IMG/VR virus record: IMGVR_UViG_3300044977_000177
Location: 1 to 32,744 of that record
Source: a virus
Direction: 5' to 3' (one strand)
DNA length: 32,744 nucleotides
Below are positions 7,349-32,744 of the stretch, in pieces. Made by a program: the position numbers and the translations under genes. The notes under the pieces are model-generated. The model made no database searches and was not told the origin of the DNA. It worked only from the letters and a program-made list of their open reading frames with translations. Each line of letters begins with the position of its first letter. The first letter of the stretch is position 1.

Positions 7349-7351
7349 AGT

Positions 7352-8887: not shown

Positions 8888-8912
8888 GGGCTAGGGTGCT
8901 AGACTTTCCAAA

Positions 8913-9206: not shown

Positions 9207-9381
9207 TCCCTTCGAGCGCCGGAACCACGTACTTCGCCGTAAAGTCTGCTACCGAGAGCGCCGCCGCTCCTTGCACATCGACTCGCGGGATTCGCACCGT
9301 CGCCCAGCACGCGGACATAGAGGCGTCGCGTTTTTCTTTCGGGTCGTGAACCCGGATCGTTAGCGTGAGTTCGTCAGCCAT
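9160..9381 (-). CDS. Small hypothetical protein between gp4- and gp10-like genes
   Basis: The 73-residue product begins MADELTLTIRVHDPKEKRDA and continues VQGAAALSVADFTAKYVVPA. A beta-rich start followed by a helical end suggests a small virion or assembly factor. Its ATG at 9381 lies 1 nt after the stop of the gp4-like gene, so it is in the same operon and probably coupled. P22 has gene 10 directly after gene 4, so this is an insertion relative to that order. The family is not recognised. Confidence 0.65.
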   Translation of the reverse strand: MADELTLTIRVHDPKEKRDASMSACWATVRIPRVDVQGAAALSVADFTAKYVVPALEGIKNLGLGSAGTAPSS

Positions 9382-9382
9382 C

Positions 9383-10168
9383 TCAGAAGCTCCGGTTCAG
9401 ATAGTTGAACGTTGTGCTGCGCTGATCCTCTTCGGCTCCGGGAATTCCGGAGTCCCTCGTCTGCATTCGTGGAACCTTGTTGTTGTTTCCAAAGATTGCC
9501 GAACGCGCCAGAGCTGCATCCCGCGCCAACGTCGCCGGGGGCTGCCCTCCCAACATTTCCGCCAGACTCAGCATGGCCGCACTGCGATACCCCGGTGGCA
9601 ACGTTCCCGGTCCGCCAGGTCCGCCCAGCGGATCGGTGATAGACGAGAACTGAGAAATCAGCGCCCAGCATTTCAACTGCGTCTGGTACGCGATGGTTGG
9701 AATCGGCCAGAAGAAGAGTTGGCCATTTGGGAATGCCGGATTGTAAAAGAGATCAGTCGGCTGCTGACTGGTGAGATTCTGGATCGTCTGATCCATCCAC
9801 CACTGTTCATCCCGGATATTCAGTGGAATTGAGACGACCGGCGAGACGTTATTGAGGATGATCGTCGCCTGCGTGATCTTCACCGGGCGCTGCGGCGCGT
9901 AGAATGTGGCTCCAACTCCCGGCCCGATCGTGTGCGGCGCCAGATTCGGCACCAAATTATAAATATTGAAGGTCGATGCATAAGAGAAGACCTTGCGCGC
10001 CGCCCACGTATCGGTGAGGTAGTTGAATTTCCGGAAAGCCCACTGCGCCGTGTCCGGATCGAGTTTCTCTCCGGGCGCAGAAATCCCCACCTCGATCAGC
10101 GCGTCGGTAATAATGTCGAGCGCCGAGTAAACGAGCGGGGCTTCCCCGGCTGGCGGACCGATGGGCAT
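9383..10168 (-). CDS. P22 gp4-like head completion / tail accessory factor
   Basis: The product has 261 residues. The N-terminal helical part YSALDIITDALIEVGISAPG and the following DTAQWAFRKFNYLTDTWAAR match the gp4 family, which forms a ring under the portal and completes the head. A beta-rich central part (ITQATIILNNVSPVVSIPLN) and a C-terminal helix ARDAALARSAIFGNNNKVPR follow. P22 gp4 has 166 residues, so this member carries an extra central domain. The start ATG is 3 nt past the preceding stop. Confidence 0.82.
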   Translation of the reverse strand: MPIGPPAGEAPLVYSALDIITDALIEVGISAPGEKLDPDTAQWAFRKFNYLTDTWAARKVFSYASTFNIYNLVPNLAPHTIGPGVGATFYAPQRPVKITQATIILNNVSPVVSIPLNIRDEQWWMDQTIQNLTSQQPTDLFYNPAFPNGQLFFWPIPTIAYQTQLKCWALISQFSSITDPLGGPGGPGTLPPGYRSAAMLSLAEMLGGQPPATLARDAALARSAIFGNNNKVPRMQTRDSGIPGAEEDQRSTTFNYLNRSF

Positions 10169-10171
10169 GAG

Positions 10172-10567
10172 TTAGCTCTTCGGTTCGGAGGAAGCGGGCT
10201 GGTCGCCGATTGAGGCGGGGGTCGGAGTTGCGGGACTCGGCTGCAACGGCGGAACGGGTTGCGGCCCGGATGGAGCGGGATTCGGCGCGGGCTGCGATGC
10301 CGCCTCAATCTCTTCCTTCGCCGCGTCTTGCGCGAGCGCGAGTTGCTCTTCGATCGCGGCCAGTTCTTCGGCGCGGTTATTCACCACTCGGGTTTCTTTC
10401 CCGAATTGCAGGTGTTTGGGATACTCCTGGTGAATGTGAAGGCTTGCGACGACGCTGATCTGGCGTGGCGCGTGGTTGTCCTGGTCGAGCGCATCCATCG
10501 CATCTGCGATCCGCTTCAGTTCCGCGGGCAGGATGGTTACGCCTTCCGGTAAGGTCTGCTGTGCCAT
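10172..10567 (-). CDS. Hypothetical virion-operon protein, Pro/Ala-rich tail
   Basis: The 131-residue product has a folded-looking first half (LPEGVTILPAELKRIADAMD, ISVVASLHIHQEYPKHLQFG) and a helical stretch (NRAEELAAIEEQLALAQDAA). The C-terminal 40 residues are almost only Pro, Ala, Ser and Gln. A strong Shine-Dalgarno, AAAAAGGAG, precedes the ATG at 10567. It precedes the gp4-like gene by 3 nt. The HLQFGKETRVVNN part recurs in small proteins of phage head operons as far as I recall, but no named domain is recognised. Confidence 0.7.
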   Translation of the reverse strand: MAQQTLPEGVTILPAELKRIADAMDALDQDNHAPRQISVVASLHIHQEYPKHLQFGKETRVVNNRAEELAAIEEQLALAQDAAKEEIEAASQPAPNPAPSGPQPVPPLQPSPATPTPASIGDQPASSEPKS

Positions 10568-10579
10568 AAAAACTCCTTT

Positions 10580-10807
10580 TTGATCCTTAGAGATAAACTT
10601 GGAGACGTGGAGAGCGAAGAAGATAACGGGCTGGCATGGCTGGCATGTGACCGGGTGTGCGATGCCTGCGTGAAAGTCGTTCGCGCCAATCCCGGTGCGC
10701 TCTGGGATGAGTTCCGAGTTCTGCTTCCGGACGGAAAGCAGTGCTTAGGTTTCTGTGTCACAGACGCCAAGCCAAACGGATTCCCCGACGCGCCGCCGCG
10801 TTTTTAG
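10580..10807 (+). CDS. Small protein on the opposite strand, start uncertain
   Basis: The frame runs from a TTG at 10580, or a GTG at 10607, to a TAG at 10807 (75 or 66 residues). Its stop and the stop of the minus gene at 10804 share 3 nt. The sequence WLACDRVCDACVKVV then ANPGALWDEFRVLLPDGKQC, and LGFCVTDAKPNGFPDAPPRF, looks protein-like, with C-x2-C and two further Cys. It exactly fills the gap between two minus genes. No convincing Shine-Dalgarno is seen for either start. The family is unknown. Confidence 0.45.
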   Translation: MILRDKLGDVESEEDNGLAWLACDRVCDACVKVVRANPGALWDEFRVLLPDGKQCLGFCVTDAKPNGFPDAPPRF

Positions 10808-11460
10808 CTCGCGACGGGCGCGTAGGCGATCGCCGCGATGATGTCCGCCTTGGTCATGTCGGCATCGAGTTGCAGGCCCAGATCCTTGGCGTGCGCAATC
10901 AGTGTGTCGCGGTTCATCGCATTCAGCTCGAGGATCCTTGCCACATCGGGCGCTGGCGTTGGAGTTTGTGAGGTCTGCGTGTCTTCGGGGTTCGCCGACG
11001 GAACTCGGCTCTGCGACGGCCCGACTTTTACGCTCAGGATGGCGGGATCAATTCCCGCATTCGCCTGGGCGGAATCCTCCAACTGAATCTGCGGGGGCGT
11101 CTGAAGGAAGCCGTCCGCTTTCGCCTGCCGTTCCTCTTCCTTGCTTTTCACCGTGCGTGTCAGTGGACGCGGATGCGGAACGTCCAGCGGTGCGAGCGTC
11201 GGATTGGCGTCATTTCGCCGGCGCGTTCCTAGGCGAAGATCCTCTCGGACCGGGTCCAGTTTTGCCGGGTGATACATCACCTTCGGAAATTCCAGGTACG
11301 GAACCTTCTTCCATCCCGTACTGCGTTCCGGGTGATGGATGTCGATGGCCTCCGCCGAAGCGTGGTTTTCGACGATCTGGTTTTGCGTGTTGGCCAGTTC
11401 CTCGAGCAGCAGCTTCTTGCGGACTTCCAGTTCCTGATAGTTCATGCCTTGCGATGCCAT
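10804..11460 (-). CDS. Head-operon protein with C-terminal HeH/LEM-like helical motif
   Basis: The 218-residue product starts MASQGMNYQELEVRKKLLLE, a coiled coil, then has a Pro/Asp-rich middle. The end, LELNAMNRDTLIAHAKDLGL then QLDADMTKADIIAAIAYA, fits the short helix-extended-loop-helix (HeH/LEM, SAP-like) motif seen at the end of several phage head-region proteins, where it may bind DNA. The start ATG at 11460 has GAGGAGACACT upstream as ribosome site. A strong terminator lies just upstream (11507-11546), so this gene opens a new transcription unit or is reached by read-through. Confidence 0.7.
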   Translation of the reverse strand: MASQGMNYQELEVRKKLLLEELANTQNQIVENHASAEAIDIHHPERSTGWKKVPYLEFPKVMYHPAKLDPVREDLRLGTRRRNDANPTLAPLDVPHPRPLTRTVKSKEEERQAKADGFLQTPPQIQLEDSAQANAGIDPAILSVKVGPSQSRVPSANPEDTQTSQTPTPAPDVARILELNAMNRDTLIAHAKDLGLQLDADMTKADIIAAIAYAPVAS

Positions 11461-11506
11461 AGTGTCTCCTCGAACAGCGAATGCAAATCGTGAGAACAGA
11501 ACCTGT

Positions 11507-11546
11507 AAAAAAATGGCGGGCCGGGCTCCGAAAGCCCGGGCCCGCC
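11507..11546 (-). terminator. Rho-independent terminator after the 11554-12450 gene
   Basis: Read on the minus strand, a very GC-rich hairpin of about 13 bp (GGCGGGCC arm with one bulged base, loop of about 5 nt) is followed by a T-tract of seven. It lies directly after the stop at 11554. It probably ends most transcripts of the coat gene and the following secreted-type gene, lowering expression of head completion genes downstream. Confidence 0.85.
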
Positions 11547-11553
11547 CTCTCTT

Positions 11554-12450
11554 TTAGTTACTGAACAGTCCGAGCGAGGCGGAAATATTTGCCGCCGTGT
11601 CGGAGGTTGCTGAGACAAATTGGAACTGGATGTAATCGCCCACTTTAGTGGCGACTCCGTCCGCCGTGTCGGCGCAACTCGTACCGGAGGCTGCGATGGT
11701 GCAGGTAATGGAAGTGGCTGCGCCGTTTTTATAAACGGTGAGCACGTCCTTTCCCGTACCGCCGACAACCGCGGCGCTCGAATTGACGTGAAGATTTGCC
11801 AACTCGCCGTCGGTTGCGACCGTATAGCTGAACGTGGCCGTAGTTGCGCCTGAGCAGGCTGCTCCGTTCAGATATTCGGTTTGCGCCGATCCCGCCGTGC
11901 CGGTACAGAAACCGGCCGGTACAGTGGTCGCGGCGCTCCAGGCGGAACCGGTTCCCGAGTGGAACCAATTGCCATCGGCTTTGCAATCGAACCGGAATCC
12001 GTCCGTTAAGTTGATCCACGGAAGAATCGCCGGAAGGGTCGCGGTGCCGGCAGCGTTCGACCAGCAGGTTCCGGCCACGTCATAGCCCTGAAACAAGTTG
12101 GGGCGTCCGACATAGACGGTTCTGCCGGAAGCGTGGCCTTCGGCTTTGGTTCCATGCGTGCCGCGAGTAACCAGAATGCAGGTTCCTGACGGCGGGATGG
12201 AGTTGGTCACGACATCCATTGCTTCCGTATCCACCCAGAGGGTTGTCTGGACTTCGACCGTCGCATAGACGTTGGCAATCGAAGCCAGGCAGACACCCTG
12301 AGTCGTCGCGGCGCCCCCATTTACGGTGGGAATGGCGGAAGACAAGGTTGTCGTGGTTTGTGATTGTGCGCCCTGCTGTTGGGCAACGCCCGAAACTGCC
12401 AGGAGAGCGACAAGGACCGAAACTGCGAAAATGCTTTTGAGTGTTTTCAT
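11554..12450 (-). CDS. Secreted-type protein in the capsid locus
   Basis: The product has 298 residues from the ATG at 12450, which has GGGAG about 8 nt upstream. The reading is open to 12765, but that part lies inside the coat gene and has no character of its own. Residues 1-23 are a clear Sec signal peptide: MKTLK, hydrophobic SIFAVSVLVALLAV, and SGVA|QQQ. The mature part is Thr/Ala/Gly-rich with several Cys that could form disulphides. The C-terminal 90 residues, starting TFSYTVATDGELANLHVNSS, look like a beta sandwich with VLTVYKNG, a type seen in phage decoration and fibre proteins. It sits between the coat gene and the terminator. A signal peptide on a decoration protein would be paradoxical. 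Confidence 0.75.
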   Translation of the reverse strand: MKTLKSIFAVSVLVALLAVSGVAQQQGAQSQTTTTLSSAIPTVNGGAATTQGVCLASIANVYATVEVQTTLWVDTEAMDVVTNSIPPSGTCILVTRGTHGTKAEGHASGRTVYVGRPNLFQGYDVAGTCWSNAAGTATLPAILPWINLTDGFRFDCKADGNWFHSGTGSAWSAATTVPAGFCTGTAGSAQTEYLNGAACSGATTATFSYTVATDGELANLHVNSSAAVVGGTGKDVLTVYKNGAATSITCTIAASGTSCADTADGVATKVGDYIQFQFVSATSDTAANISASLGLFSN

Positions 12451-12517
12451 GGGTTGTCTCCCTTTCAATGGACCGCTGAATGCTCCCAGTTGCCGTTGAA
12501 GTCGGGAATTCTCCTCT

Positions 12518-13762
12518 TTAGCTGCAGGCAATGCGGACGGCGCAGTTGTCGGGATACAGCGCGCCGAAGCCCAGGAGGACATCAGCGCGGCATACCCGCT
12601 TGCGCTCGATCGGATCGAACATATCAAGCAGCGCGACGGAGATCCCGGTCTCGGGATCGGTGGCGCGGCCGGACCATTCGCAGGCCTTCGGAATGTCGAG
12701 TTCGACTCCAACCATGGCATACGCATCTTTGGTGAGGGCGAGGCCCTGCGCCGAAGATTTGCCATTGGGCGAAACCGTTCCCGGATAGGAAGTCAGCGCC
12801 GCGGCATTCGCCGGAAGCGAATCCACGTTCTGGTACTGGCTGCCCGGTCCGAAGATGGCGGGAGAGATGTTCAGCACATCGGCTCCGCCGCCCACGCAGG
12901 TGATAGCCTGCGTGACCACGAACTCCTTACCCTGTGCTGTCGAGATCACAGCCAGGTTTTCGGGGTTCACGGCATTGACGTTGGCGATTTCGAAAATATC
13001 GCCCTGAGCGTAGGTGTCGCCGGCGGTGGCGTTGATCGTCAGTTGCGAGCCCTGCTGATCCGCGCCAGCGACGGTGTTGGTTCCGGCTTGCGTGCCGGCC
13101 GTCTGCCGCCAATTGTTCACCGACTCGTACCAGTCGAAGCCGACCATCTTGCCCATCGAGCCGCGTTTGTACTGCCGGCTGATTTCAGAGGTCGGATTGA
13201 AGAATGAGGCGAGCGAGGGAATCAGGCTGGTGCCGACGGAAGGCGGATAGATCATGCCCCATTCGCCATCCTGCGGGCATCCCTGCTCGATCAAGCGTTG
13301 CCGCGCCTGCAGGAAGGTCGTCATCGAGGTGGGATCGACTCCCAACTGGCCCACGATGTTCGACGTATTCTGCATGGCGAACAGCGCGAACCGGCGATCG
13401 ATTTCATTCGCCAGCTTCGCCATCTGCTTGTCGATGTACTCTTTCTTGAACCACTCGCGGCCGCGCTCCATCTTCAGCGCGCGTTCCAAGCTGTCCACCT
13501 GGAAGTGAATGCCGAAGATCTGGTTGACGGAAACCGTGGTGTAGATGCGGTTGATCGGTTGAGGTTGGAACGCCAGGCCGTTCGTTACCAGCCAGCGCTG
13601 CGGCAGTTTCACGCGGACGGTTTCGCCGACCGCGTAGGTGCGTTCGTATTCTTTTTCGTACTCGTGGGATGCGAACTGGGCGTATACCAGCCGGTTGAGC
13701 AGCATACGCAGAGATTCCGCCGCAACCCAGTCAACGAATTGAAAGGTATTTGCTGTGGCCAT
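12518..13762 (-). CDS. Major capsid protein, P22 coat (gp5) type
   Basis: The product has 414 residues (P22 gp5 has 430). The N-terminal NRLVYAQFASHEYEKEYERT, then AVGETVRVKLPQRWLVTNG and QPQPINRIYTTVSVNQIFGI, closely follow P22-like coat proteins (F-x-x-x-Y-E ... K-x-G-D/E-T-V-x-V-R/K-x-P). DEIDRRFALFAMQ-type helices and LIEQGCPQDG follow. HK97-fold shells are built from several hundred copies. Scaffold is directly upstream and portal two genes upstream, as in P22. The C-terminal KRVCRADVLLGFGALYPDNC is also typical of the family. Confidence 0.9.
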   Translation of the reverse strand: MATANTFQFVDWVAAESLRMLLNRLVYAQFASHEYEKEYERTYAVGETVRVKLPQRWLVTNGLAFQPQPINRIYTTVSVNQIFGIHFQVDSLERALKMERGREWFKKEYIDKQMAKLANEIDRRFALFAMQNTSNIVGQLGVDPTSMTTFLQARQRLIEQGCPQDGEWGMIYPPSVGTSLIPSLASFFNPTSEISRQYKRGSMGKMVGFDWYESVNNWRQTAGTQAGTNTVAGADQQGSQLTINATAGDTYAQGDIFEIANVNAVNPENLAVISTAQGKEFVVTQAITCVGGGADVLNISPAIFGPGSQYQNVDSLPANAAALTSYPGTVSPNGKSSAQGLALTKDAYAMVGVELDIPKACEWSGRATDPETGISVALLDMFDPIERKRVCRADVLLGFGALYPDNCAVRIACS

Positions 13763-13785
13763 CTAGAATTCGTCCTTGCGAGCCT

Positions 13786-15021
13786 TCAGCGTTGTGCTGC
13801 CTTGGTCTCGCGAGCGTTCACGATCCGCATATACGCGGCCATGTCGCCTCTGGCCAAAGCTGCCTCGGCTTCATCCGCCGGCGCGGCACCGCGGCCGCCG
13901 AGTTCCGGAGGTGGAGGGGGTAGCCTTGGAGGTGGAGGGTTCACAGGACGAGCTTCCGCAGCGGGCGTCTTTTTAGGCGCGGGTGCAGCGGAGAATTCGC
14001 GTTCGATGGCTTCGAGTCGCCGGACCTGGCGAATGGGGTTGACGTGGTTGGTGTATTTGCCCGTCTTATGGTCAAAATCACCGTAATCCCACGTTTTGGT
14101 TTCAGGATCGTAGTCGCAGCCGTAAAACTCCGCGAGGATCTCGGGATGCTTTCCGAGATAGTAGAGAACTTCGCCGGGGTTGTCGGAATCCTTGATGAAC
14201 AGATCGACTGGCGAGCCAGCCGGAATGGGCAACTTCGGATCCGCGGCGACCTCCATGAAGTCTTTGTACTTCTCCATCGCAGGCTTCGACTTCGTGATCA
14301 CGGCTTCTGCGACCTGGCGCTGCTCTTCGGTCTGCGTCCGCGCCTGTTCCACCTTGCCGAGCCGCTCCTCTAATCGGGCTTCCAGGCGTTTGTCGTTCCA
14401 CTCGTCGACGGCGTCCATCCATGCGTCGAGAGAGGCAAACGGCTTGCCGGTTTTCGGATCGGTATCGGTCAGTTTGGGCTTGGCGGGAGCGGCGGCCGTC
14501 GATGCGCCGGGCTTGGCAGTCTTGTCCTCGGCTGCAGGTTGCGAATTCTGCTTGTCGGCATTGTTTCCCGAGGGTTGACTGCGCAGTCGCGCGAGTTCCT
14601 GACGATCTTTTTCCCATGCGTCGAGCAGCTTCTCGAAGCGCTCGTCGGATTTTTTTCGTCTCTGTGGTTGATTTGCGGGCTGCGCGGCCGCGGCGTCTGC
14701 AGCGGGAGCGGGCGAGGCTCCGGGTTCAGCCGATTTGTCTTTCCCTTTGTCCTTCTCTTGCGATGCTTTGTCTTGCGATGGAGTGGCGGAGGCTCCGGTA
14801 CGCGCCGAATTTGAGGGTTCGTCCTTCTTTTCGCCGGGTGTATTCTCGGCGGCCTTCACTTTTACAGGCGGGATGTCGCCGGTCTTGCGCCAGTTGTCGA
14901 GTTCGGCGGATGAGGCATGATTCAGCCGCTCCTGCACGGTGATTTCAGGAGTCTCGACGCTTTCAACGGCTGCGGCTGCAGGGGGAACCGGGGCTTCCGT
15001 GATGACGGCGGGTGTGCTCAT
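13786..15021 (-). CDS. Scaffolding protein
   Basis: The 411-residue product is highly charged and mostly helical. The first 180 residues are low-complexity Ala/Pro/Lys/Glu/Ser. A central coiled coil (DEWNDKRLEARLEERLGKVE) is followed by KPAMEKYKDFMEVAADPKLP and EVLYYLGKHPEILAEFYG, which is the pattern of scaffold proteins in P22-like phages. The C-terminus is Pro-rich then basic (RGDMAAYMRIVNARETKAAQR in two pieces), matching the coat-binding basic helix of scaffolds. Position between portal and coat genes supports the call. It would direct coat assembly and then leave the procapsid. Confidence 0.85.
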   Translation of the reverse strand: MSTPAVITEAPVPPAAAAVESVETPEITVQERLNHASSAELDNWRKTGDIPPVKVKAAENTPGEKKDEPSNSARTGASATPSQDKASQEKDKGKDKSAEPGASPAPAADAAAAQPANQPQRRKKSDERFEKLLDAWEKDRQELARLRSQPSGNNADKQNSQPAAEDKTAKPGASTAAAPAKPKLTDTDPKTGKPFASLDAWMDAVDEWNDKRLEARLEERLGKVEQARTQTEEQRQVAEAVITKSKPAMEKYKDFMEVAADPKLPIPAGSPVDLFIKDSDNPGEVLYYLGKHPEILAEFYGCDYDPETKTWDYGDFDHKTGKYTNHVNPIRQVRRLEAIEREFSAAPAPKKTPAAEARPVNPPPPRLPPPPPELGGRGAAPADEAEAALARGDMAAYMRIVNARETKAAQR

Positions 15022-15061
15022 GGAGTTTTTATCCTCGGAAGAAAATGGGTGGCGATTAGAA

Positions 15062-17350
15062 TTACGATCCAGCAGGCGGCTGCGCTTGCGACTGCTGATC
15101 CGCCTGAATCTGCGTAGCCTGCTGCGCGGCTGCGGTCTGGGCCTGCGTTTCCGCTAAATTCTTTTCGTGTTCCTGCTCGGCGGCCTGCAGACCCACATCG
15201 TGCGCGGCGCGGTGATTCTCCAGCCAGAATTCCTTGTACATCTCCTGCTCTTGCTGCTCGTTCTGGTTTTTGGCTGAGATGAGCGCGACCAAAACCTTGA
15301 TATCGTTCTGCATCTGCGCGATGGTTTGCGCGTTGACGTGGCTGGCGGCATCGGCTGCTCCGTCGGCCTGAATCTCCATCTGCTTGAGCTGAAGTTTCGT
15401 GTCGGCTTCCAGTTGTCGCTTGGCTCGGTCCTGATGAAGTGCGGCGTTCTCGGTCTGCAGTTGCGAGAGTTGCGCCTGCAACGTCTGCATCTGCTGTTGC
15501 AGTTGTGCTGGGTCCCCGGTAGGCGGTTCGAGAATCTTTACCATCTGGTCGCCGATCGGACCCATTTGTTTCAACTGGATCATCAAGGCGAGAAGGTGCT
15601 GCTTCACCTGTGGGTCGAGCGGCAGTTCGGCCAACTGCTCGGTCAGCGTTTCCAGGTAATCACTGGCTTCTTCGCGCTGAGAATCCTCTGTCGGGCTAAC
15701 CGAGAGCGTCACGTCGTACTCTCCCAGCGTCATATCGTGATGCTGTTGCTGGCCCTGGTCGTCGGTGTATGGCTTGTTGATCCAAACCAGCTTCTCTTTC
15801 CCGTCCTTCATGCGGATCGGGACTTGTTTCGGCGTAATTTCGATTTTCGATTGCAGATCGTTGACGATGCGCCCTACGGCCACGATGAACCGGTTGTAGT
15901 TGTCGATGAAGTGGAAAGAGCCGATATCGGACTGCGCGTCCAGTTCTTGAATCGCTTTTCCCGATTTGGCGTTGGTGTCGTTTTTGCCGACCGAGGTGTT
16001 GTACATGCCCACGGCGGTTTGCCCGGCTCGAAGGAAGGATTCCGAGGCAATTTCCAGATTTTGCACCGGCGGATCGAAGGGCTCGCGGATCGGCGCCGGG
16101 GCTGGCGTCACGCCGTCTGGAAGCGTCGTTGGCTTGTAGTAGGTAACCGGTCTGGGGCTCCGGTTGGCGTCTTCCAATTCTTCCTCGTGGCCCTCAAACG
16201 ATCCTTCCGGCGCCAGGTAGTTAGTCCGCGGCACCATGCCGATTGCCTCGACCTTGCAGGTCTGAACGTAGTTGTAGGACATCTGGCTGTCGCGCGCGTT
16301 GCGGATCAAACTCAGCAGCATGCGCTTCGATCCGGCGGCTTCGGTGAGGTAAAGCTCTTTGCCGAAAATCGGAATGACCGGAATCCACTTTCCCACCCAC
16401 TCGTTTGCTTCGAGGATCTCGATGCCGTTGGTGAGATACTGCCAGATGGCGGGGATCCGGGTATTCCGCACGTTCAGGAGCGGAACGCGGATCTCCGGAT
16501 GGCCGTCCTGTTCGGGGTAGATGACGAGCGAGTCCTCGACCCGCCCGCCTCGCGCGAGAAGTTTCGATTTCAATTCGGTGAGGATGCCGGCTTTTCCGCC
16601 GTCAAACTGAAACAGTTCGTCAGTCTTGTGCTCGACTCGCCAGTATTCGGCGACGCGAAGCGATTTGTCCTTGAACCAGTCGGGTGCGGCCGTGATGTTC
16701 GCGCCTTCAAACTCCATGACCTCAGCGTCCGGCCATCGGCGGCGGAACTCGCTCTTGAGCATTTCGTCGATGATGTAGCAGTGAGTGGCGTCGGAGCAGT
16801 CGAGTTCCTTGCAAGCCGAGTCGAAGAGCACCGAATCCGGATTGGGAATGCGGCGAATGCAGATTTCCTGATCGAAACTGGTCGCCGAGGCGTAGCGCAG
16901 CGAGACGCGCGCGAAGCCATAGCTGCGCTGCACGCAGTTTTCAATGGCGGTGATGTAGGCGGCCTGGGCGTCGGACCGGTACTGAATGGCGCGGATGCGG
17001 TTTTCGCGCAATTCGGCGAGCTGGGCCGTCGCCCCAAAGCCGCGGGGAGAAAGTTTGATTTCGCGAGGATGCTGCCGGACTTCATTGATGACCAGATTGC
17101 AAAATTGATTGAGAAAATCGCAGGACATCATCGGGCGTTCACTGCCCGGAGTTCGTCGTGCCTGCTTTTCTTTTTCGGGCCAGGGATCGTTAGCGATGAA
17201 CTTCACGTCGGTTGCGCCCTGGTCGCGGATGGTCTGGAAGGCAATGGTGTCGGATTCGTAGTTCTCCCGCACTTCGCGCAGCAGCTTCTCGTCGGAGGTG
17301 CCGATGCTGTCGTGCTTATTGGCTACCGCTTTGTGGGCGACGTCGGGCAT
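15062..17350 (-). CDS. Portal protein, P22 gp1 type
   Basis: The product has 762 residues (P22 gp1 has 725). The N-terminal part DPWPEKEKQARRTPGSERPM, then SCDFLNQFCNLVINEVRQHP, is characteristic of the P22 portal family. Family-like features continue with ICIRRIPNPDSVLFDSACKE, VEAIGMVPRTNYLAPEGSFE and SGKAIQELDAQSDIGSFHF. The C-terminal 180 residues form a long Gln/Ala coiled coil, corresponding to the barrel region that reaches into the capsid. The dodecameric portal is the DNA entry and exit channel. The ATG at 17350 directly follows the upstream stop. Confidence 0.92.
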   Translation of the reverse strand: MPDVAHKAVANKHDSIGTSDEKLLREVRENYESDTIAFQTIRDQGATDVKFIANDPWPEKEKQARRTPGSERPMMSCDFLNQFCNLVINEVRQHPREIKLSPRGFGATAQLAELRENRIRAIQYRSDAQAAYITAIENCVQRSYGFARVSLRYASATSFDQEICIRRIPNPDSVLFDSACKELDCSDATHCYIIDEMLKSEFRRRWPDAEVMEFEGANITAAPDWFKDKSLRVAEYWRVEHKTDELFQFDGGKAGILTELKSKLLARGGRVEDSLVIYPEQDGHPEIRVPLLNVRNTRIPAIWQYLTNGIEILEANEWVGKWIPVIPIFGKELYLTEAAGSKRMLLSLIRNARDSQMSYNYVQTCKVEAIGMVPRTNYLAPEGSFEGHEEELEDANRSPRPVTYYKPTTLPDGVTPAPAPIREPFDPPVQNLEIASESFLRAGQTAVGMYNTSVGKNDTNAKSGKAIQELDAQSDIGSFHFIDNYNRFIVAVGRIVNDLQSKIEITPKQVPIRMKDGKEKLVWINKPYTDDQGQQQHHDMTLGEYDVTLSVSPTEDSQREEASDYLETLTEQLAELPLDPQVKQHLLALMIQLKQMGPIGDQMVKILEPPTGDPAQLQQQMQTLQAQLSQLQTENAALHQDRAKRQLEADTKLQLKQMEIQADGAADAASHVNAQTIAQMQNDIKVLVALISAKNQNEQQEQEMYKEFWLENHRAAHDVGLQAAEQEHEKNLAETQAQTAAAQQATQIQADQQSQAQPPAGS

Positions 17351-17713
17351 TTACTGAACGTTTCGAAGCTTCCGGTCGAGCGCATCCGAGGAGCGGTCAT
17401 AGGCTTCTCGTGCGGCGGCGCGTTCCGCCTCTTCGAATGTCACGCGCGGCATCTTCGTCTTTGCGGCTTTCTGGGCGATCCGTTTGGCCTTCTTGCCGCC
17501 TACGCCCATGAACATGGTGAAGCTGGGGACCTTGAAGGCAAGATGCGGGACAATGGCGTCATAGGCGGCTTTCCGTTTGTCTGCGGGCGTGGCAAAAAGA
17601 AACGCCCGAAAGTGCTCCTTCGAAAGAATGCGTTTCGCGAGTGCCGGCGCGGGGTTGAGGAGCGAGATCCCCGCATCCATCAACATCTGCGCGGCTTTGG
17701 CGTCCACGCTCAC
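17351..17713 (-). CDS. Hypothetical basic helical protein upstream of the portal
   Basis: The 120-residue product starts at a GTG at 17713, overlapping the previous stop as GTGA. It is helical and basic: SVDAKAAQMLMDAGISLLNP, then RILSKEHFRAFLFATPADKR, and VGGKKAKRIAQKAAKTKMPR. It ends with EEAERAAAREAYDRSSDALD. Its place between packaging accessory genes and the portal suggests an assembly helper. No family is recognised. Confidence 0.7.
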   Translation of the reverse strand: MSVDAKAAQMLMDAGISLLNPAPALAKRILSKEHFRAFLFATPADKRKAAYDAIVPHLAFKVPSFTMFMGVGGKKAKRIAQKAAKTKMPRVTFEEAERAAAREAYDRSSDALDRKLRNVQ

Positions 17714-17949
17714 CGCAGATTCTCCCGGCTTCGCCAGTTGTAGGAGTTCGACTCGCTCACGACGGATCGATTGCCCATACGGCGATGTTTTGCGGTTCCA
17801 GCTACGGCAGCATTGGCCTCGCGGATGGCGCGGCCTTCGTCGCCGGTGGATGCGAGCACCGAGTTGGCGCCGTCCGAGAACTGACGCCTCTTCTTCGGAG
17901 TGTTCGCTTTCTTGGTGTGACGCGTGGCGTCTTCGGGTTTCCAGGGCAT
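17710..17949 (-). CDS. Small conserved-type phage protein
   Basis: The 79-residue product begins MPWKPEDATRHTKKANTPKK and continues FSDGANSVLASTGDEGRAIR, EANAAVAG. This follows a small basic family common in phage packaging regions (W-K-P/A-x-D-A-x-R-x-T-K-K-A ... N-S-x-L-A-x-T-G-D-E-G-x-A-I-R-x-A-N). The function is unknown. The C-terminal 30 residues are less typical (RRMGNRSVVSESNSYNWRSR). It begins 1 nt after the preceding 24-residue frame and ends in a GTGA overlap. Confidence 0.75.
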   Translation of the reverse strand: MPWKPEDATRHTKKANTPKKRRQFSDGANSVLASTGDEGRAIREANAAVAGTAKHRRMGNRSVVSESNSYNWRSRENLR

Positions 17950-17950
17950 C

Positions 17951-18025
17951 TCAATAACCGATCGCGCGAGACATTAAAATATCGACCGCCCAGCCCACAT
18001 CTTTACGATCCAATCTGCGACTCAT
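17951..18025 (-). CDS. Possible 24-residue peptide gene
   Basis: A frame of 24 codons (MSRRLDRKDVGWAVDILMSR plus AIGY) exactly bridges two genes. Its ATG overlaps the stop of the upstream gene as ATGA, and its stop is 1 nt before the next ATG. The peptide is amphipathic. The fit into the junction pattern used throughout this operon supports it, but the length means chance cannot be excluded. Confidence 0.45.
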   Translation of the reverse strand: MSRRLDRKDVGWAVDILMSRAIGY

Positions 18026-18240
18026 TGTCCCGTCGGAATCTCGTTCAGCTCCACACCTGGAGCGTAGTAGCGCTTGCCGTTGTGCGGACACGGGTTGCCG
18101 TTTTGGAGTTTGCCGCCGTCTGGGTGAGTGAGGCTCATGCGGTCCGGATGGGCCGCCAGAACGGTGCGCGAAGCGTATTCGAGCACCGACCCGCACGCCG
18201 GGCACTCATAGTTGTGCTTGAGGTAGAAGTAGGCTGGCAT
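18022..18240 (-). CDS. Small zinc-binding-type protein
   Basis: The 72-residue product starts at the ATG at 18240 (MPAYFYLKHNYECPACGSVL). It has C-x2-C early and a later C-P-H (NGNPCPHNGKRYYAPGVEL), giving a plausible C-C-C-H metal site. A longer reading to 18291 would overlap the tRNA and is not preferred. The middle (VLAAHPDRMSLTHPDGG) is His-rich. The function is unknown. It belongs to a group of tiny Cys-rich genes between terminase and portal. Confidence 0.7.
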   Translation of the reverse strand: MPAYFYLKHNYECPACGSVLEYASRTVLAAHPDRMSLTHPDGGKLQNGNPCPHNGKRYYAPGVELNEIPTGQ

Positions 18241-18260
18241 TGGAATTACACTTACGAAGT

Positions 18261-18348
18261 GGAGAGTTGGGTGAGCGGCCGAAACCAGCACATTGCTAAC
18301 GTGCCGAGCAGAAATGCTCCGTCAGTTCGAATCTGACACTCTCCGCCA
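18261..18348 (+). tRNA. tRNA-Ser (anticodon GCU), CCA encoded
   Basis: The 88-nt gene folds as a class II tRNA. The acceptor GGAGAGT (18261-18267) pairs with ACTCTCC (18338-18344), then discriminator G and encoded CCA. The D-arm has a 3-bp GGT/ACC stem. The anticodon loop TTGCTAA gives GCU, with one A-C mismatch next to the loop. A long variable arm, GAGCA-GAAA-TGCTC, is diagnostic for Ser/Leu. The T-arm is GTCAG-TTCGAAT-CTGAC. It would read AGC and AGU serine codons. It lies on the plus strand between minus-strand genes. Confidence 0.93.
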
Positions 18349-18357
18349 TTTGCTCAG

Positions 18358-18519
18358 TTACTCCGGAACGCCTTTCCAGGGCACTCGCACCGTTCCGAAT
18401 CCCCACACGTAGTCCACCGGCTTTTCGTGCAACAGGCAGGCCTCCAGCGTCTCAACCAACAGGTCTTCGCCGACCTGCGGCTTTACCTCTGTTCCCGGCC
18501 AGTTGTCATTCTTTGGCAT
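18358..18519 (-). CDS. Small hypothetical protein (53 residues)
   Basis: The frame runs from an ATG at 18519, inside the end of the upstream HiPIP-like gene (14-nt overlap), to a TAA at 18358. The product begins MPKNDNWPGTEVKPQVGEDL and ends DYVWGFGTVRVPWKGVPE. A middle helix LLVETLEACLLHEKPV is predicted. The gene ends 9 nt from the 3' end of the tRNA on the other strand. The family is unknown. Confidence 0.6.
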   Translation of the reverse strand: MPKNDNWPGTEVKPQVGEDLLVETLEACLLHEKPVDYVWGFGTVRVPWKGVPE

Positions 18520-18712
18520 CGAACTTCTTGCACCAATCGGTTCCCTGAATCGGCGTCTTCACATGCTTGCAGCGCGGAACCATCGCGGGAATGTAGGCGA
18601 CGCAGAGTGAGCAGTGCTCGTCTTCGTGCCGTGAGGGGTGCTGGAAATTAACTGCGGCGTGCGTGAGTTTCTCGCTCGCCGGCCACTCCCCCGAAACTAA
18701 CTGGACCAGCAC
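18506..18712 (-). CDS. HiPIP-like small Cys4 protein
   Basis: The 68-residue product starts at a GTG at 18712, directly after the upstream TAG. Four cysteines, C34-x2-C37-x10-C48-x12-C61, with the context HCSLCVAYIP ... PRCKHVKTPIQGTDWCKKF, follow the high-potential iron-sulphur protein pattern (C-x2-C-x-x-Y/F ... C ... G-x-x-W-C). Classical HiPIPs bind one Fe4S4 cluster, but they are exported and a little longer; this one lacks a signal peptide. A zinc site is the alternative. It is one of several Cys-rich mini-proteins in this block. The fold call is a motif match only. Confidence 0.6.
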   Translation of the reverse strand: MLVQLVSGEWPASEKLTHAAVNFQHPSRHEDEHCSLCVAYIPAMVPRCKHVKTPIQGTDWCKKFDAKE

Positions 18713-19051
18713 CTAGCTTTCCAGTTCTTCCTCTTCGTCAGGCTCGTCCGCCTTCGTATTGCTTTTATTGGGGGACTCTTCCTTCTCTTCGATAATCGAG
18801 TGCGGGATGCCCATGTGCTCTGCGATGTGCTGCAGAGGGTGTCCTTTCGGCAACTCCACGCTCTCGCTGGGCTCGGTGAACGGATGCTGCTCCGATGGGT
18901 GTTCGTAGCTGGTGAAATGGTGCTCTACCACCGTCCCGCCGGTAGGATCTGCGCCCTTCATGACGCGGAGGTGTTCGAGGACCTTGGCTGGTTTCTTCGG
19001 CTTCTCCATTTCTCGTGGATTCATGCCGCCATGCGCGATGCTGGGACTCAT
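18713..19051 (-). CDS. Hypothetical acidic-tailed protein
   Basis: The 112-residue product begins MSPSIAHGGMNPREMEKPKK, with AAGGAGATCACC as ribosome site before the ATG at 19051. A conserved-looking middle, VEHHFTSYEHPSEQHPFTEP then GHPLQHIAEHMGIPHSIIEE, is His-rich. The last 20 residues are mostly Asp and Glu. His-rich plus acidic parts could bind metal, but this is only composition. It directly abuts the HiPIP-like gene. Confidence 0.7.
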   Translation of the reverse strand: MSPSIAHGGMNPREMEKPKKPAKVLEHLRVMKGADPTGGTVVEHHFTSYEHPSEQHPFTEPSESVELPKGHPLQHIAEHMGIPHSIIEEKEESPNKSNTKADEPDEEEELES

Positions 19052-19090
19052 GCTGGTGATCTCCTTGTCTGCAAACGGTTGAAACTCGAT

Positions 19091-19285
19091 TTACTTCTTC
19101 GCCGGCGCCGCGGCGCACGTCAGGATGGCCATGTCGCCGACCAGGCGCTCACTCATCTTGCGTCCCCCGAGGCAACGGATGCCGACTTCCTGGGCGCCAA
19201 GATGCGTGACCTGGTAGGTGTTCGGTTCGGCTGCGAAAACCATCAGGCCGCCGGCGATCAAAACGAACATCAGAACTTTCTTCAT
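19091..19285 (-). CDS. Small secreted or periplasmic protein
   Basis: The 64-residue product has a typical Sec signal peptide, MKKVLMFVLIAGGLMVFAAE, with likely cleavage near residue 18-19. The mature peptide of about 45 residues has two Cys (IRCLGGRKMSERLV, AILTCAAAPAKK) that may form a disulphide. The Shine-Dalgarno GAGGTAA stands about 6 nt before the ATG at 19285. Possible roles are superinfection exclusion or envelope modification, which is inference only. Confidence 0.72.
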   Translation of the reverse strand: MKKVLMFVLIAGGLMVFAAEPNTYQVTHLGAQEVGIRCLGGRKMSERLVGDMAILTCAAAPAKK

Positions 19286-19312
19286 GGAATTACCTCGAGT
19301 TGCCGGGAAGTT

Positions 19313-19840
19313 CTAGCTGTAGGTGCCGACCGAAACGGGCGTGAAAGTTGCCGCCGTAGGCAACAGGTTCACCAGCCAGGTGCGCGAAGTGTTTTGAGGC
19401 ACCGTGGCGGTCCCGTTGATCGTCACACCGGTTCCACCGACCAAAGTCAGGGTGCCGGCTCCGGTCTGCGTGATGGTCAGAATGAAATTGATTCCGCCAA
19501 CCAGCGCGGGATCGGTCAGCGGTAATCCCCATTGGGCCGCGAGATCGGCGAAGAGTTGCGCCGCAGTGCGCGTGGTCTGATTTCCCGGCACCGTGGCTGC
19601 GGAGTTCAGGAAAACCTGCAAGCCTCCGGTCAGGACGTTGGCGGGGATCGTTTGGGCGACAACGGCTGCCGCGAAGGCGGTGTACTGCGGACTGAAGGCG
19701 CCTATCAATTGCGAGGCGCTGCCTTGGGTGAAGGCGCCGAAGTTCGATATTGCTATTCCGACCAAGCCGAGCGTGGCAAAGATCACAGCCAGACCGACAG
19801 GGTGCGTGAAAAACGAGAGTGCGAGAGCGAGTGGAAGCAT
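19313..19840 (-). CDS. Probable virion protein with hydrophobic N-terminus and C-terminal beta module
   Basis: The 175-residue product starts at the ATG at 19840, supported by CGGAGACAAAACAA upstream; the open reading to 19966 adds no family-like sequence. Residues 1-33 are strongly hydrophobic (MLPLALALSFFTHPVGLAV, IFATLGLVGIAIS). The C-terminal part, GTLTLVGGTGVTINGTATVP then QNTSRTWLVNLLPTAATFTP, resembles the G-V-T-I-x-G-x-x-x-I-x-x-N-T-x-R module of phage structural proteins. It may be a head decoration or membrane-anchored virion-like protein. Confidence 0.65.
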   Translation of the reverse strand: MLPLALALSFFTHPVGLAVIFATLGLVGIAISNFGAFTQGSASQLIGAFSPQYTAFAAAVVAQTIPANVLTGGLQVFLNSAATVPGNQTTRTAAQLFADLAAQWGLPLTDPALVGGINFILTITQTGAGTLTLVGGTGVTINGTATVPQNTSRTWLVNLLPTAATFTPVSVGTYS

Positions 19841-19868
19841 TTGTTTTGTCTCCGGGAAAATCAGAATT

Positions 19869-20114
19869 TCAAAGGTCGAACATTTCGGTCCAGCGAGCGA
19901 TCCGGGCACGCTCAGGATGCGGTGGGCGGGTTTCGCCGCTGAACGCAGTCGAGTTGTCGCCGGCAAGCTGCAAATTCTGGCAGTGCGTGTTCTCTGCTAC
20001 GAAGCACACGGGGCAGGGAATCGATAAAGCTTTACCCACTGGCTTCGCCGAGGTGAAGTCGCGTAGAAACGGGTAAGTGTTCGTCATTGCCAGTGCTGTT
20101 TCGTGCGGAGTCAC
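19869..20114 (-). CDS. Small Cys/His protein of the packaging block
   Basis: The 81-residue product starts at a GTG at 20114, overlapping the upstream stop as GTGA; an ATG at codon 10 is an alternative. A C-P-V-C ... H-C group (IPCPVCFVAENTHCQNL) suggests a metal site. The C-terminal part GETRPPHPERARIARWTEMF is basic. The function is unknown. It is part of a consecutive set of three coupled small genes (20510 down to 19869). Confidence 0.65.
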   Translation of the reverse strand: MTPHETALAMTNTYPFLRDFTSAKPVGKALSIPCPVCFVAENTHCQNLQLAGDNSTAFSGETRPPHPERARIARWTEMFDL

Positions 20115-20305
20115 CGAATGGATGCGCCAGCGCTCAAACGAATCAGCGAAGGCCGCTGCGTGATTCCTCTTCGATAGCCGTTCTTGCGAATTTCTTCACC
20201 GAACGGGTCTTTTCTGGCTTCGAGCCGCTGCAAGCCGCAGTGTTTGGCTTTATGCCCGGCGCCGCCGCAAATATCGCAGCAGACGAAATGGTTGCCGATG
20301 CCCAC
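20111..20305 (-). CDS. CCHC zinc-knuckle mini-protein
   Basis: The 64-residue product starts at a GTG at 20305, with GGAAAG upstream. It contains a perfect zinc-knuckle spacing, C-D-I-C-G-G-A-G-H-K-A-K-H-C (C-x2-C-x4-H-x4-C), preceded by another Cys. Zinc knuckles bind single-stranded RNA or DNA. The C-terminal half is Arg-rich. Located between terminase and portal genes, it could act in packaging or as a nucleic-acid chaperone; this is inference. Confidence 0.7.
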   Translation of the reverse strand: MGIGNHFVCCDICGGAGHKAKHCGLQRLEARKDPFGEEIRKNGYRRGITQRPSLIRLSAGASIR

Positions 20306-20309
20306 AAAA

Positions 20310-20510
20310 TCACTTTCCTAGCTTCCGATTGGCCTTGGCTCGGACCGTCGCGGCCTGCGCGGGAGACAAAGTTCCCGCATTCACTCCCTGGGTAGCGCGA
20401 GCTTTTGCATTCGCGGCATGCGCCCTATCGGGAATTGGGAACCGCCGACCGGGCAAAGCAAATACGCTGTCCGCGAGAGCGTTGCGGGATTTGCTGGTGA
20501 GTTTCGCCAT
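20310..20510 (-). CDS. DUF6582-like small protein
   Basis: The 66-residue product contains ADSVFALPGRRFPIPDRAHA then ANAKARATQG, and GTLSPAQAATVRAKANRKL. This follows a widespread short domain (L-P-x-x-x-F/Y-P-I-x-D-x-x-H-A-x-N-A-L-A-R ... S-P-x-x-x-x-x-V-x-x-x-V/A), which I recall as DUF6582. It occurs in phage capsid or packaging loci. The function is unknown. The ATG at 20510 lies 9 nt after the previous stop. Confidence 0.75.
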   Translation of the reverse strand: MAKLTSKSRNALADSVFALPGRRFPIPDRAHAANAKARATQGVNAGTLSPAQAATVRAKANRKLGK

Positions 20511-20519
20511 GAGGATTTC

Positions 20520-20819
20520 TTAGTACATCATCGGTCGTCGCTGCAGGAAGCCGGACGCCAGCGCATTGTTGTATTGCGGGGCTTGCATCGGCATCGGCCG
20601 CGACATGGGAACGAACGGAGCTTGCGGCGCCATCGGTGGCTGTCCCGGAACCGGAGCTGCAGCGCCGGGCACGCTGTAAGGCTGCGGGTTGACTTCGATG
20701 GGATTCTGGATGGGGTTCGGTCCCGGAGACGGGAGCGACATAGGACCACCTGGCCGCACCATCGGTCCCAGCAATCTTCGCGGATCGTTGAACTGACTGG
20801 CGTAGGAGTTTGGGTACAT
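20520..20819 (-). CDS. Proline-rich small protein after the large terminase
   Basis: The 99-residue product is Pro/Met/Gln-rich (GPNPIQNPIEVNPQPYSVPG, PGQPPMAPQAPFVPMSRPMP). The ends are more regular: MYPNSYASQFNDPRRLLGPM and NALASGFLQRRPMMY. It starts 1 nt after the terminase stop, so translation is probably coupled. Such Pro-rich proteins are often disordered virion or assembly linkers. No family is recognised. Confidence 0.65.
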   Translation of the reverse strand: MYPNSYASQFNDPRRLLGPMVRPGGPMSLPSPGPNPIQNPIEVNPQPYSVPGAAAPVPGQPPMAPQAPFVPMSRPMPMQAPQYNNALASGFLQRRPMMY

Positions 20820-22316
20820 TTAAGACCACTCCGTTGTAGGGCGACGGGCGATGTTGGCTTTCGGTTTCGTAATCCCCACCGGCAACGCCCAGGTCAGACA
20901 GAAAGCATCGGCATCGTCGGGACTCTGTTCGCCGCGCGCCTGAATATCCTGCTTCGATTCGATCACCAGCTTGCCGGAAGAATTGATGTGGTAGCCGGGA
21001 AGCGAAAGCTGCGAGCAGAGAATGTCATCGTCCGGCAATCCTCCGAGCAGCAGCCACTCTTTGCATTTTCCGTACATGTGAGCGCGCATGTTCAGGAAAT
21101 GCGGATCCGGACTGGGACCGCCGAAATTCACTTCGAAGACATTCTTGAAATCCAGCGCGCGCAACCGCTCGACGATCGGCGCCCCAAACGCGCGGTCGAC
21201 AAACATCGCCGCTACGACTCGTCCCGGCCGGCGATCGCGCAGCAGCTCGGCACATACAGCGACGCGCTGCGATCGATCGGGATCGTGCTCTCCGGGGATG
21301 CGAATGGGTTTGAAGCCCTCGGGATTTCCGTCCAGGCCGCGGCGGGCGCGGATGACATTCCAGGCGCGTCCGCCGCCGGAGACATCGAAGCCGAGAATCA
21401 GCGGCTCGTCTGCCATGGCAAAAGCTTTGCGGGCCCGCGCGGCATCCACGCGCGCCTTGTCGATATACTGCAGCTCGGAAGCCGAAGGCGGATAGCCGAG
21501 GACGCGGACCTTATAGTGATCGCTGTCGATGCCGTAATCTTTTTCCCACTGCTTGATGAGTTCTTTGTTGGTGAAGCGGCTGGTATTGCTGTCGACGCGG
21601 CGGTGATTCCAGCGCACGGCGAGATCTCCGAACGAGATCCGGTAGAACTCTCCCGTGTTGCGCACCATCTGCCCCCACACGAACATCATGGGCTCGCCGT
21701 CGGTCAGGCCTCCGTAAGCCGTGTGGAAGATACCATCGGGAACTTCGCTAGCTTCATCGAACAGATACCAGCTCGTCGAAGTCTTCGCGTGTTGCCCGGC
21801 GAAGCTCTGACGGTTTTCCTCTTTACAGGTCTGCGCGAGCACCTTCCAGTCATCCGGGAATTGCTTGTGGTAAATCCCTCGAGCCTGGATATCGAACCAG
21901 TGACCGGTAATGCACAGCTTCGTCCAGTAGCGAATCGCCGCCCAGGTGCGGTTCTCGAGCTGCACATACGTGCCGGCGGTGACGGTGCCGATCGAGTGCG
22001 GCCGTGTCGAAAGAATAAAGTCGGTGAGCCAGGCGCCCATCGCGCTCTTGCCCGTGCCGTGGCCGCTCGATTCGTTCATCAGAATCGGCATGACCGGAGT
22101 GCGGCCGTCGAATTTGCGCTTGCGGATCTCCTTCCCGAGCTCTCGCAGAAATTCCTTCTGGTTGTCATCCGGGCCCGACTCGTGCTCGAGCGGACCGCCG
22201 GGTTCGCCCCAGGGATAGGCAAACATGACGAAGCCCAGCGGATCGTCGTAAAACTTAGCGACTTCGTCCGCGAGCTGCAGGTCGGGCAACTGTTCGAGTT
22301 GGGCGGTTGCGCTCAT
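20820..22316 (-). CDS. Terminase large subunit (DNA-packaging ATPase/nuclease)
   Basis: The product has 498 residues. The ATPase domain shows a Walker A SSGHGTGKS (residues 83-91) and a Walker B WYLFDEAS (183-190). The RNase H-like nuclease domain has LGFDVSGGG (Asp311), AAMFVDRAFG (Asp374) and SPDDADAF (Asp467-Asp470). It cuts concatemeric DNA and pumps it into the head through the portal. The ATG overlaps the small-terminase stop as ATGA (22313-22316). Its length matches P22 gp2 (499). Confidence 0.93.
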   Translation of the reverse strand: MSATAQLEQLPDLQLADEVAKFYDDPLGFVMFAYPWGEPGGPLEHESGPDDNQKEFLRELGKEIRKRKFDGRTPVMPILMNESSGHGTGKSAMGAWLTDFILSTRPHSIGTVTAGTYVQLENRTWAAIRYWTKLCITGHWFDIQARGIYHKQFPDDWKVLAQTCKEENRQSFAGQHAKTSTSWYLFDEASEVPDGIFHTAYGGLTDGEPMMFVWGQMVRNTGEFYRISFGDLAVRWNHRRVDSNTSRFTNKELIKQWEKDYGIDSDHYKVRVLGYPPSASELQYIDKARVDAARARKAFAMADEPLILGFDVSGGGRAWNVIRARRGLDGNPEGFKPIRIPGEHDPDRSQRVAVCAELLRDRRPGRVVAAMFVDRAFGAPIVERLRALDFKNVFEVNFGGPSPDPHFLNMRAHMYGKCKEWLLLGGLPDDDILCSQLSLPGYHINSSGKLVIESKQDIQARGEQSPDDADAFCLTWALPVGITKPKANIARRPTTEWS

Positions 22317-22882
22317 GCTGATTTCGCCGCTCGCTCCCGGCCTTTTTGCAGGCGGGCGAGAATTGCGGCGCCGTCACTAACCTCAAATTTGTCGGTGAAC
22401 AGCTTGAAGTGCCGGCCGAGACGCTCCAGATTCAATCCGCGATCGGCGAGCCGAACTTTCGTGATCGTTCCCACCTCTTCGGCCTGACCCTTGCCGAAGT
22501 GTTTGAAGAGTTTCTCGACATCCATGCCGGCGAGGGCGTGCACCGTGGCATCGTCCATGTCGGTGATCTTTTTCATGCTGCCGTCTTCGTTGAACATCTT
22601 GCGGGGATCGAAGAAAGCCAGCTCGGCGAGGCCTTTGAGGACCTGCTCGGAGGTGATATCGAGCTTCTCGAGGCGCTTGGAAGTGATTTCGGCTAGTTTT
22701 TCCCGGACCTTAACATTTCTTAGCAGACGGGAGGCGGTGACGGCCGCCGAGCGCTTCCCGTAACCCGCTGCTTCCGCGGCCCTTGCGCCATTTCCGTCGA
22801 CCAAATATTCACGGATGAAAACTTCCTGTTTCTGGCTAAGGTCCGCGCCCTTTTTGTTAACATGCTTGCTTTTGGGGGTCAT
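22313..22882 (-). CDS. Terminase small subunit (Terminase_2 type)
   Basis: The 189-residue product contains LSQKQEVFIREYLVDGNGAR then AAEAAGYGKRSAAVTASRLL, the helix-turn-helix signature of the Terminase_2 family (K-Q-x-x-F-x-x-E-Y-L-x-D ... N-A-x-x-A-A-x-x-A-G-Y). A central oligomerisation region (KRLEKLDITSEQVLKGLAEL) and RLADRGLNLERLGRHFKLF are also typical. It recognises the packaging site and recruits the large subunit. The overlap with the large-subunit gene is ATGA. Confidence 0.9.
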   Translation of the reverse strand: MTPKSKHVNKKGADLSQKQEVFIREYLVDGNGARAAEAAGYGKRSAAVTASRLLRNVKVREKLAEITSKRLEKLDITSEQVLKGLAELAFFDPRKMFNEDGSMKKITDMDDATVHALAGMDVEKLFKHFGKGQAEEVGTITKVRLADRGLNLERLGRHFKLFTDKFEVSDGAAILARLQKGRERAAKSA

Positions 22883-32236: not shown

Positions 32237-32744
32237 TCAATTAAACCAGTTTCGCACTTCCGCTAGAATCTCTCTCTTCAATGAGGCGCATTTATCCTCA
32301 TCCACATGCACGACTGGCGGATATAAAGCCACAATCCAGAGCCGTTCCCCTTTCCACTTTGCGGGATTGAGCGTGGCGTGCAGCGCTCCAGGCTTGCAGG
32401 GATGAAGCGGTCCTTTCATCTCTTCGATCATGCCGACGCATCGCGCCGGACCACTGCCGCCATTGGCGGGTGTGCCATCTTTGGCAGATCTCCAGAACGC
32501 CAGCACCGCGCCTTGTTCGCGCAAGAGCGAACCGCGCTCCCCGATGACTGATGCTATAACGGCCTCCCTGTAAGCGACGACCTCGGCCCCGTCCCCGTCC
32601 CCGTCCCCGGACCCGTACCCGTCCCCGGACCCGGCCCCGTCCCCGTCCCCGTCCCCGTACCCGTACCCGTCCCCGTACCCGTCCCCGTCCTCGGCCCCGT
32701 CCCCGGACCCGGCCCCGTCCCCGTACCCGGACCCGTACCCGGAC
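32237..32744 (-). CDS. Gly-X repeat protein with DUF7666-like C-terminal domain (partial)
   Basis: The frame is open from the window edge to 32237, so the N-terminus is missing. The first visible 55 residues are Gly alternating with Asp, Tyr, Ser or Ala (for example GDGYGDGYGYGDGDGDGAG), encoded by a hexanucleotide repeat. Then come GAEVVAYREAVIASVIGERG and LLREQGAVLAFWRSAKDGTP. The C-terminal part, EMKGPLHPCKPGALHATLNP then KWKGERLWIVALYPPVV, resembles DUF7666 phage proteins. A TTG at 32524 is a possible internal start, but the continuous sense reading through the repeat argues for a longer protein. The function is unknown; Gly-X tails may be flexible or adhesive. Confidence 0.7.
   Translation of the reverse strand, partial: SGYGSGYGDGAGSGDGAEDGDGYGDGYGYGDGDGDGAGSGDGYGSGDGDGDGAEVVAYREAVIASVIGERGSLLREQGAVLAFWRSAKDGTPANGGSGPARCVGMIEEMKGPLHPCKPGALHATLNPAKWKGERLWIVALYPPVVHVDEDKCASLKREILAEVRNWFN
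32582..32744. repeat. Hexanucleotide tandem repeat array
   Basis: About 27 units of the form CCC-GTC, CCC-GTA, CCC-GGA or CCC-GGC, without interruption of the reading frame on minus, reach the window edge. Two units carry CTC in place of CCC. Such arrays expand or shrink by slippage in steps of two codons. Confidence 0.9.

Follow-up and report, generated by a model that had tools for sequence, protein, structure and literature searches.

The window, i.e. the whole stretch of 32,744 nucleotides of viral DNA that was analysed, terminates in a gene encoding a Gly-X repeat protein. The contig stops within the gene, whose 5' end and start codon are thus missing from it, as is the upstream partner. 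Positions 32743-32237 on the minus strand form a single open frame, reading S-(GX)26-EVVAYREAV...RNWFN-stop, in which the following features were distinguished:

32741-32743, minus strand: Ser codon of the next unit, adjoining the contig end
32585..32740, minus strand: (Gly-X)26 array of GGG-KMC hexanucleotide units, X = D12 Y6 S4 A4; runs off the contig end
32240..32584, minus strand: C-terminal domain 'type A' of about 115 aa (AFWRSAKDG..NGG..LHATLNPAKWKGERLWIVAL..KREI), DUF7666-like / ADP-ribosyltransferase-like fold by prediction
32237..32239, minus strand: TGA stop codon of the Gly-X protein, closing the reading frame

Tandem Repeats Finder reported a period of 6 with 25.8 copies at 32587-32741. 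A preliminary description had claimed that this hexanucleotide array is coding and in frame with the downstream protein, which is confirmed by the single minus-strand frame. Its reading of the array as Gly-Asp, Gly-Tyr, Gly-Ser and Gly-Ala pairs holds for the 26 pairs, with the specification that the strand is the minus strand and that one of the 26 Gly codons is GAG (Glu). The other 25 are GGG and the X codons are exclusively TAC, GAC, TCC and GCC, so that unit changes alter X and not Gly, as had also been claimed. The longest unbroken Gly-X run of the array has 17 units; elsewhere in the window no run exceeds 4 units, and in 40 mononucleotide shuffles none exceeds 6, so that the run is not due to chance. 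An alternative TTG start at 32524 is contradicted by the similarity to the nearest relative of the window, locus L002, which runs upstream of that position (VVAYREAVIASVIGERGSL) and into the array. A match of the array to the Pfam family TrAA12 was low-complexity and under the cut-off and was rejected; RTX-type Ca-binding repeats were ruled out by the register of Gly and Asp.

Homologues were checked for the same Gly-X part: 17 IMG/VR loci encode the type A domain and all 17 retain its fusion to a preceding Gly-X array. The window protein gave no match to the PF24703 (DUF7666) HMM, and two out of 22 relatives scored against it at E 0.0048 or weaker. An AlphaFold model of the domain (pLDDT 90) matches named DUF7666 proteins in fold (BFVD Foldseek, e.g. 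E 2.8e-3, TMq 0.56). Similarity to ADP-ribosyltransferases is weak, with VIA Z-scores of 6.2 for Arr, 6.0 for 2aua and 4.6 for PARP14, all below 8. The earlier designation of the domain as DUF7666-like stands as far as the predicted fold is concerned and is not matched at the HMM level; on the model, the domain is DUF7666-like by fold rather than a DUF7666 member. Residues His73, Arg108 and Glu109 are invariant. A PHROGs search of the domain yielded nothing useful, and DUF7666 was absent from the 249 bacterial genomes searched.

A type A domain follows the array in 19 of 85 classified intact array genes and no domain follows it in 53. Another type of C-terminal domain (...AVRAFSKAFPDGGIWPDDIAKAEAAGLDVNW...) was observed behind the array in L252, L260, L263 and L270. 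Elsewhere in the window, positions 4393-22882 (minus strand) hold a structural and packaging block comprising DNA ejection, head closure Hc3, major head, scaffold, portal and terminase small subunit genes, with a tRNA-Ser (gct) gene at 18261-18348 between the portal and terminase genes.

The DUF6948 gene beside the arrays

The wider array family was searched with the pattern (GGNKMY)12, which is biased to Tyr, Asp, Ser and Ala at X. Many of the matches listed are tiny proteins in which a short N-terminus leads into the array and a stop codon comes straight after it; others continue into differing C-terminal domains. Again among the matches listed, a conserved gene of about 90-100 residues usually lies directly upstream of the array. 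This gene was identified as Pfam DUF6948 (PF22253), with E-values of 1.7e-17 in L002, where it is directly next to the array, and 5.2e-32 in L068. No DUF6948 was found in the window record. In PHROGs it corresponds to the unnamed family phrog_18306, and it is rare in bacterial genomes, being present in one out of 398, the centre genome itself.

Searches of genome and viral contigs anchored on DUF6948 yielded 124 loci, five of which end too soon to judge. Directly behind DUF6948, a (Gly-X)n gene with an array of at least 8 units was found in 116 of the 119 testable loci; the remaining three are short or decayed. The Gly-X gene is directly downstream of DUF6948 in 14 of 15 annotated phage records. 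When the search was anchored on the arrays, DUF6948 was detected by HMM beside 48 of 62 arrays with mixed X residues and a divergent relative beside eight more, and it was missing beside nine of the 11 arrays with a single X residue.

Some loci depart from this arrangement. In L153 (MW202478, at about 1457-1690) the order is swapped, the Gly-X gene being directly upstream of DUF6948. L053 carries five array genes in tandem at 1659-2800; these share their N- and C-termini, and there is no DUF6948 upstream of them. In L035, L047, L051, L059, L064 and L078 the DUF6948 position upstream of the array is occupied by a divergent small protein (VVVVDRGWIFAGDV...), which is probably a distant DUF6948 relative.

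The C-terminus of DUF6948 has a conserved Trp, whose codon is overlapped by the start codon of the Gly-X gene (xATGG) in 105 of 128 loci; the two genes most often share 13 bases. The conservation of this Trp can be explained by the start codon spanning it. At the sequence level, the overlap supports translation of the array, which would be coupled to that of DUF6948.

An AlphaFold model of DUF6948 (pLDDT 93.6) was compared with the PDB, and nearly all top matches were Sm/LSm proteins (Foldseek probability up to 0.99, E 0.07; VIA Z 6.5). DUF6948 is accordingly modelled here as a predicted Sm/LSm-like barrel; the Sm matches are weak by E-value, with Z below 8, and may show only a common barrel.

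Composition and variability of the arrays

Since the array pattern search favours Y/D/S/A, the composition at X was taken from the DUF6948-anchored loci. Totals were Y 1413, S 1404, D 961, N 148 and F 58, with few others, Tyr, Ser and Asp together making up 91% of X. All three residues occur in 92% of 102 non-redundant arrays. In these arrays the third base of the Gly codon is fully uniform in 78% (median entropy 0.00 bits) and the third base of X has a median entropy of 0.11 bits, compared with 1.57 bits, near the three-state maximum, for the first two bases of X. The same is seen among relatives of the window's C-terminal domain, where most arrays are all-GGG, all-GGC or all-GGT, and nearly all units have TAC, TCC or GAC at X. 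Synonymous differences, though expected from point mutation alone, are thus nearly absent, which argues that units are copied and shuffled. Ser is encoded by TCC in most arrays and by AGC in gonococcal prophages, and the L011 array has T at nearly all X third positions; a residue set that persists through such codon differences speaks for selection at the protein level. The combination of uniform synonymous sites and variable X points to unit-wise recombination or slippage, presumably under selection at the amino acid level.

The arrays vary beside unchanged flanks. The array flanks of the Pectobacterium phages Ymer and Amona match at 100% identity (1479 bp upstream, 1200 bp downstream), yet the arrays themselves count 29 and 26 units, in reshuffled order. 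Within the pairs L237/L241 and L238/L240 the upstream flanks are identical and the arrays differ. In L162-L169, contigs of one population, the arrays are identical, truncated copies aside. In the Ymer group array lengths differ by multiples of 6 bp, and these steps between near-identical phages bear out the earlier claim that length can change without a frameshift.

Two complete Neisseria gonorrhoeae chromosomes were found to contain three prophage copies each of DUF6948 and a (Gly-X)n gene:

NZ_CP119142: L289, L292, L294
NZ_CP119140: L290, L293, L295

Their X residues are N, Y, S (AGC), D and K. The arrays differ between copies (255 versus 261 bp) and between strains, with flanks that are 95.8-100% identical.

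The genomes of Ymer-type phages are short-read assemblies made with metaSPAdes (PMC11445585). No repeated 77-mers were found in the Ymer-group arrays, so that assembly should resolve them. This, together with the differing prophage copies in complete chromosomes, counters an assembly artefact as the source of the variation.

The preliminary description suggested that slippage may serve to tune a flexible or adhesive domain. On this reading, plain microsatellite slippage would set the length of a linker or an adhesive part; adhesion finds no support in the data. The 6-bp steps between near-identical phages agree with this, as do the two gonococcal prophage copies that are one unit apart. However, the order and identity of the units change as well. 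L198 and L201 differ in two units, GAC being replaced by TCC, which requires two base changes each, and the rest of the array is unchanged. Over the 102 arrays, identical units stand side by side less often than expected (1037 observed versus 1182 expected), contrary to the prediction for single-unit slippage. Simple slippage is thus insufficient, and the majority of array genes without a domain behind the array shows that it is mostly not a linker. The length steps stand, and slippage as the full account of the array is unlikely.

A diversity-generating retroelement was rejected, no reverse transcriptase (PF00078) being found in 30 related records, some of which may be fragments as IMG/VR records, or in the window record. 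An ERF or RecT annealing protein was present in 12 of these 30 records, in all 12 within about 5 kb of the gene pair, and in the Ymer-type phages and PhiPLPE the pair lies in the DNA-metabolism region. The link with annealing recombinases is suggestive but not general. Two arrays with a disturbed frame were also noted. In L181 (4288-4596) insertions of +1 and +2 cancel, part of the array reading Val-Arg before Gly-X is resumed, and the decayed array of L150 (MW202898) is readable as Gly-X in two frames.

Proposed module and alternative explanations

It is proposed that the window end represents gene 2 of a two-gene phage module, of which gene 1, beyond the contig end, would be a DUF6948 of roughly 90 aa. 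Gene 2 would encode a low-complexity (Gly-X)n protein, alone or with a folded C-terminal domain, DUF7666-like in the case of the window. The window itself contributes an in-frame (Gly-X)n of 26 pairs with X mostly Tyr, Ser or Asp. Judged from the sequences, a DUF6948-(Gly-X)n module very probably exists.

The units of the array would be copied, lost and shuffled via slippage or annealing-type recombination, and selection would act on composition (Tyr, Gly/Ser spacers and Asp charge) and not on order. The Gly-X product may be a 'sticker-and-spacer' chain, disordered and multivalent, in which Tyr residues act as stickers and which associates with itself. DUF6948 may be the folded partner of this chain, possibly ring-forming and nucleic-acid-binding, and both would act in the early, recombination-rich phase of infection. 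In some lineages the C-terminal domain would supply a further function, of a client or catalytic kind. The restricted X, the free order and the Sm-fold-like partner favour a scaffold or condensate; that function is a guess, which we would sooner doubt than assert. Taken as a whole, the explanation by a module, unit shuffling, selection on composition and a scaffold with DUF6948 falls just short of an even proposition. Against it count the array-wide change of the Gly codon while the Y/S/D mix persists, the presence of annealing recombinases in only 12 of the 30 records and a window without its DUF6948 partner.

Alternatively, the array could be under diversifying selection as a hypervariable surface or decoy of which the order matters, for instance in evading CRISPR targeting or a sensor of the host. 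The very fast change of the arrays relative to their flanks would fit, as would the near-maximal diversity of X and the depletion of identical neighbours. Unconstrained order would give fast change too, however, several contigs of one population share identical arrays and the arrays hold only three to four residue types, and we consider this explanation improbable. Equally little weight is given to a dedicated protein-diversification module, in which an Sm-fold-like protein would accompany a Gly-(Tyr/Ser/Asp) array whose units are actively replaced one at a time, residue identity changing while synonymous positions stay uniform, so that each phage population would be a cloud of array variants serving as self-associating scaffolds or decoys.

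A structural role in the virion, as a glycine-rich element of silk-like or tail-fibre type, is very unlikely: the alternating Gly-X formally resembles silk fibroin, but records with an annealing recombinase have it no more than about 5 kb from the pair, as in Ymer-type phages and PhiPLPE, i.e. in a DNA-metabolism region, and a tail fibre gene is annotated separately in the Ymer type. A role at the DNA level, as a G-quadruplex, an origin or a hot spot of recombination, with the protein being incidental, can hardly be maintained. GGG-type arrays would suit a G-quadruplex and recombination genes are nearby in some records, but 74 of the 102 arrays are GGC-type and 10 GGT-type, the DNA motif thus varying while the Gly-(Y/S/D) protein is kept, Ser is retained via both TCC and AGC, and the start codon is coupled to DUF6948.

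Novelty and comparison with known systems

In the open papers that were searched, neither DUF6948 nor arrays of this kind were found to be described. Tandem repeats and their variation, low-complexity proteins, the Sm fold and DUF7666 are already known; the combination and its behaviour are new. We could find no described counterpart to a coupled, near-obligate gene pair whose array draws on three residues and is reshuffled. The gene pair is widespread among unrelated phages, occurring in those from soil, water, the gut and plant-rot hosts and in prophages, including gonococcal ones. The module would make the role of DUF6948 testable and offer a natural model of a coding repeat of which the composition appears conserved and the order not. 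Such arrays also explain why a number of viral contigs break there.

The upstream partner in relatives, including L002, belongs to DUF6948 (PF22253) by HMM. The Pfam entry covers the partner domain only, without the coupled Gly-X gene, and in the window the partner would lie beyond the contig end. The C-terminal domain has a predicted fold in common with DUF7666 (PF24703) proteins, which occur in phages and giant viruses. Several of the matched proteins carry ankyrin or pentapeptide repeats, and a repeat joined to such a domain is a layout in common, whereas the repeat in the window is Gly-X and the window protein has no Pfam match.

As in simple-sequence contingency loci, short tandem DNA units vary in number among close relatives. 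In frameshift contingency loci the repeat number switches a frame or a promoter; here the period is 6 and lengths differ by multiples of 6, so that no frame switch is caused. Unit order and identity change as well, and there is a near-obligate partner gene. With diversity-generating retroelements the arrays share localised hypervariability in a phage protein, but there is no reverse transcriptase in the 30 relatives and the window, and X is limited to about three residues.

FUS-type low-complexity domains combine Tyr with Gly/Ser spacers, and silk fibroin (Gly-X)n shows a strict Gly-X alternation. Unlike these, the arrays described here are of phage origin, Asp-rich and hypervariable, and are encoded beside an Sm-fold-like partner.
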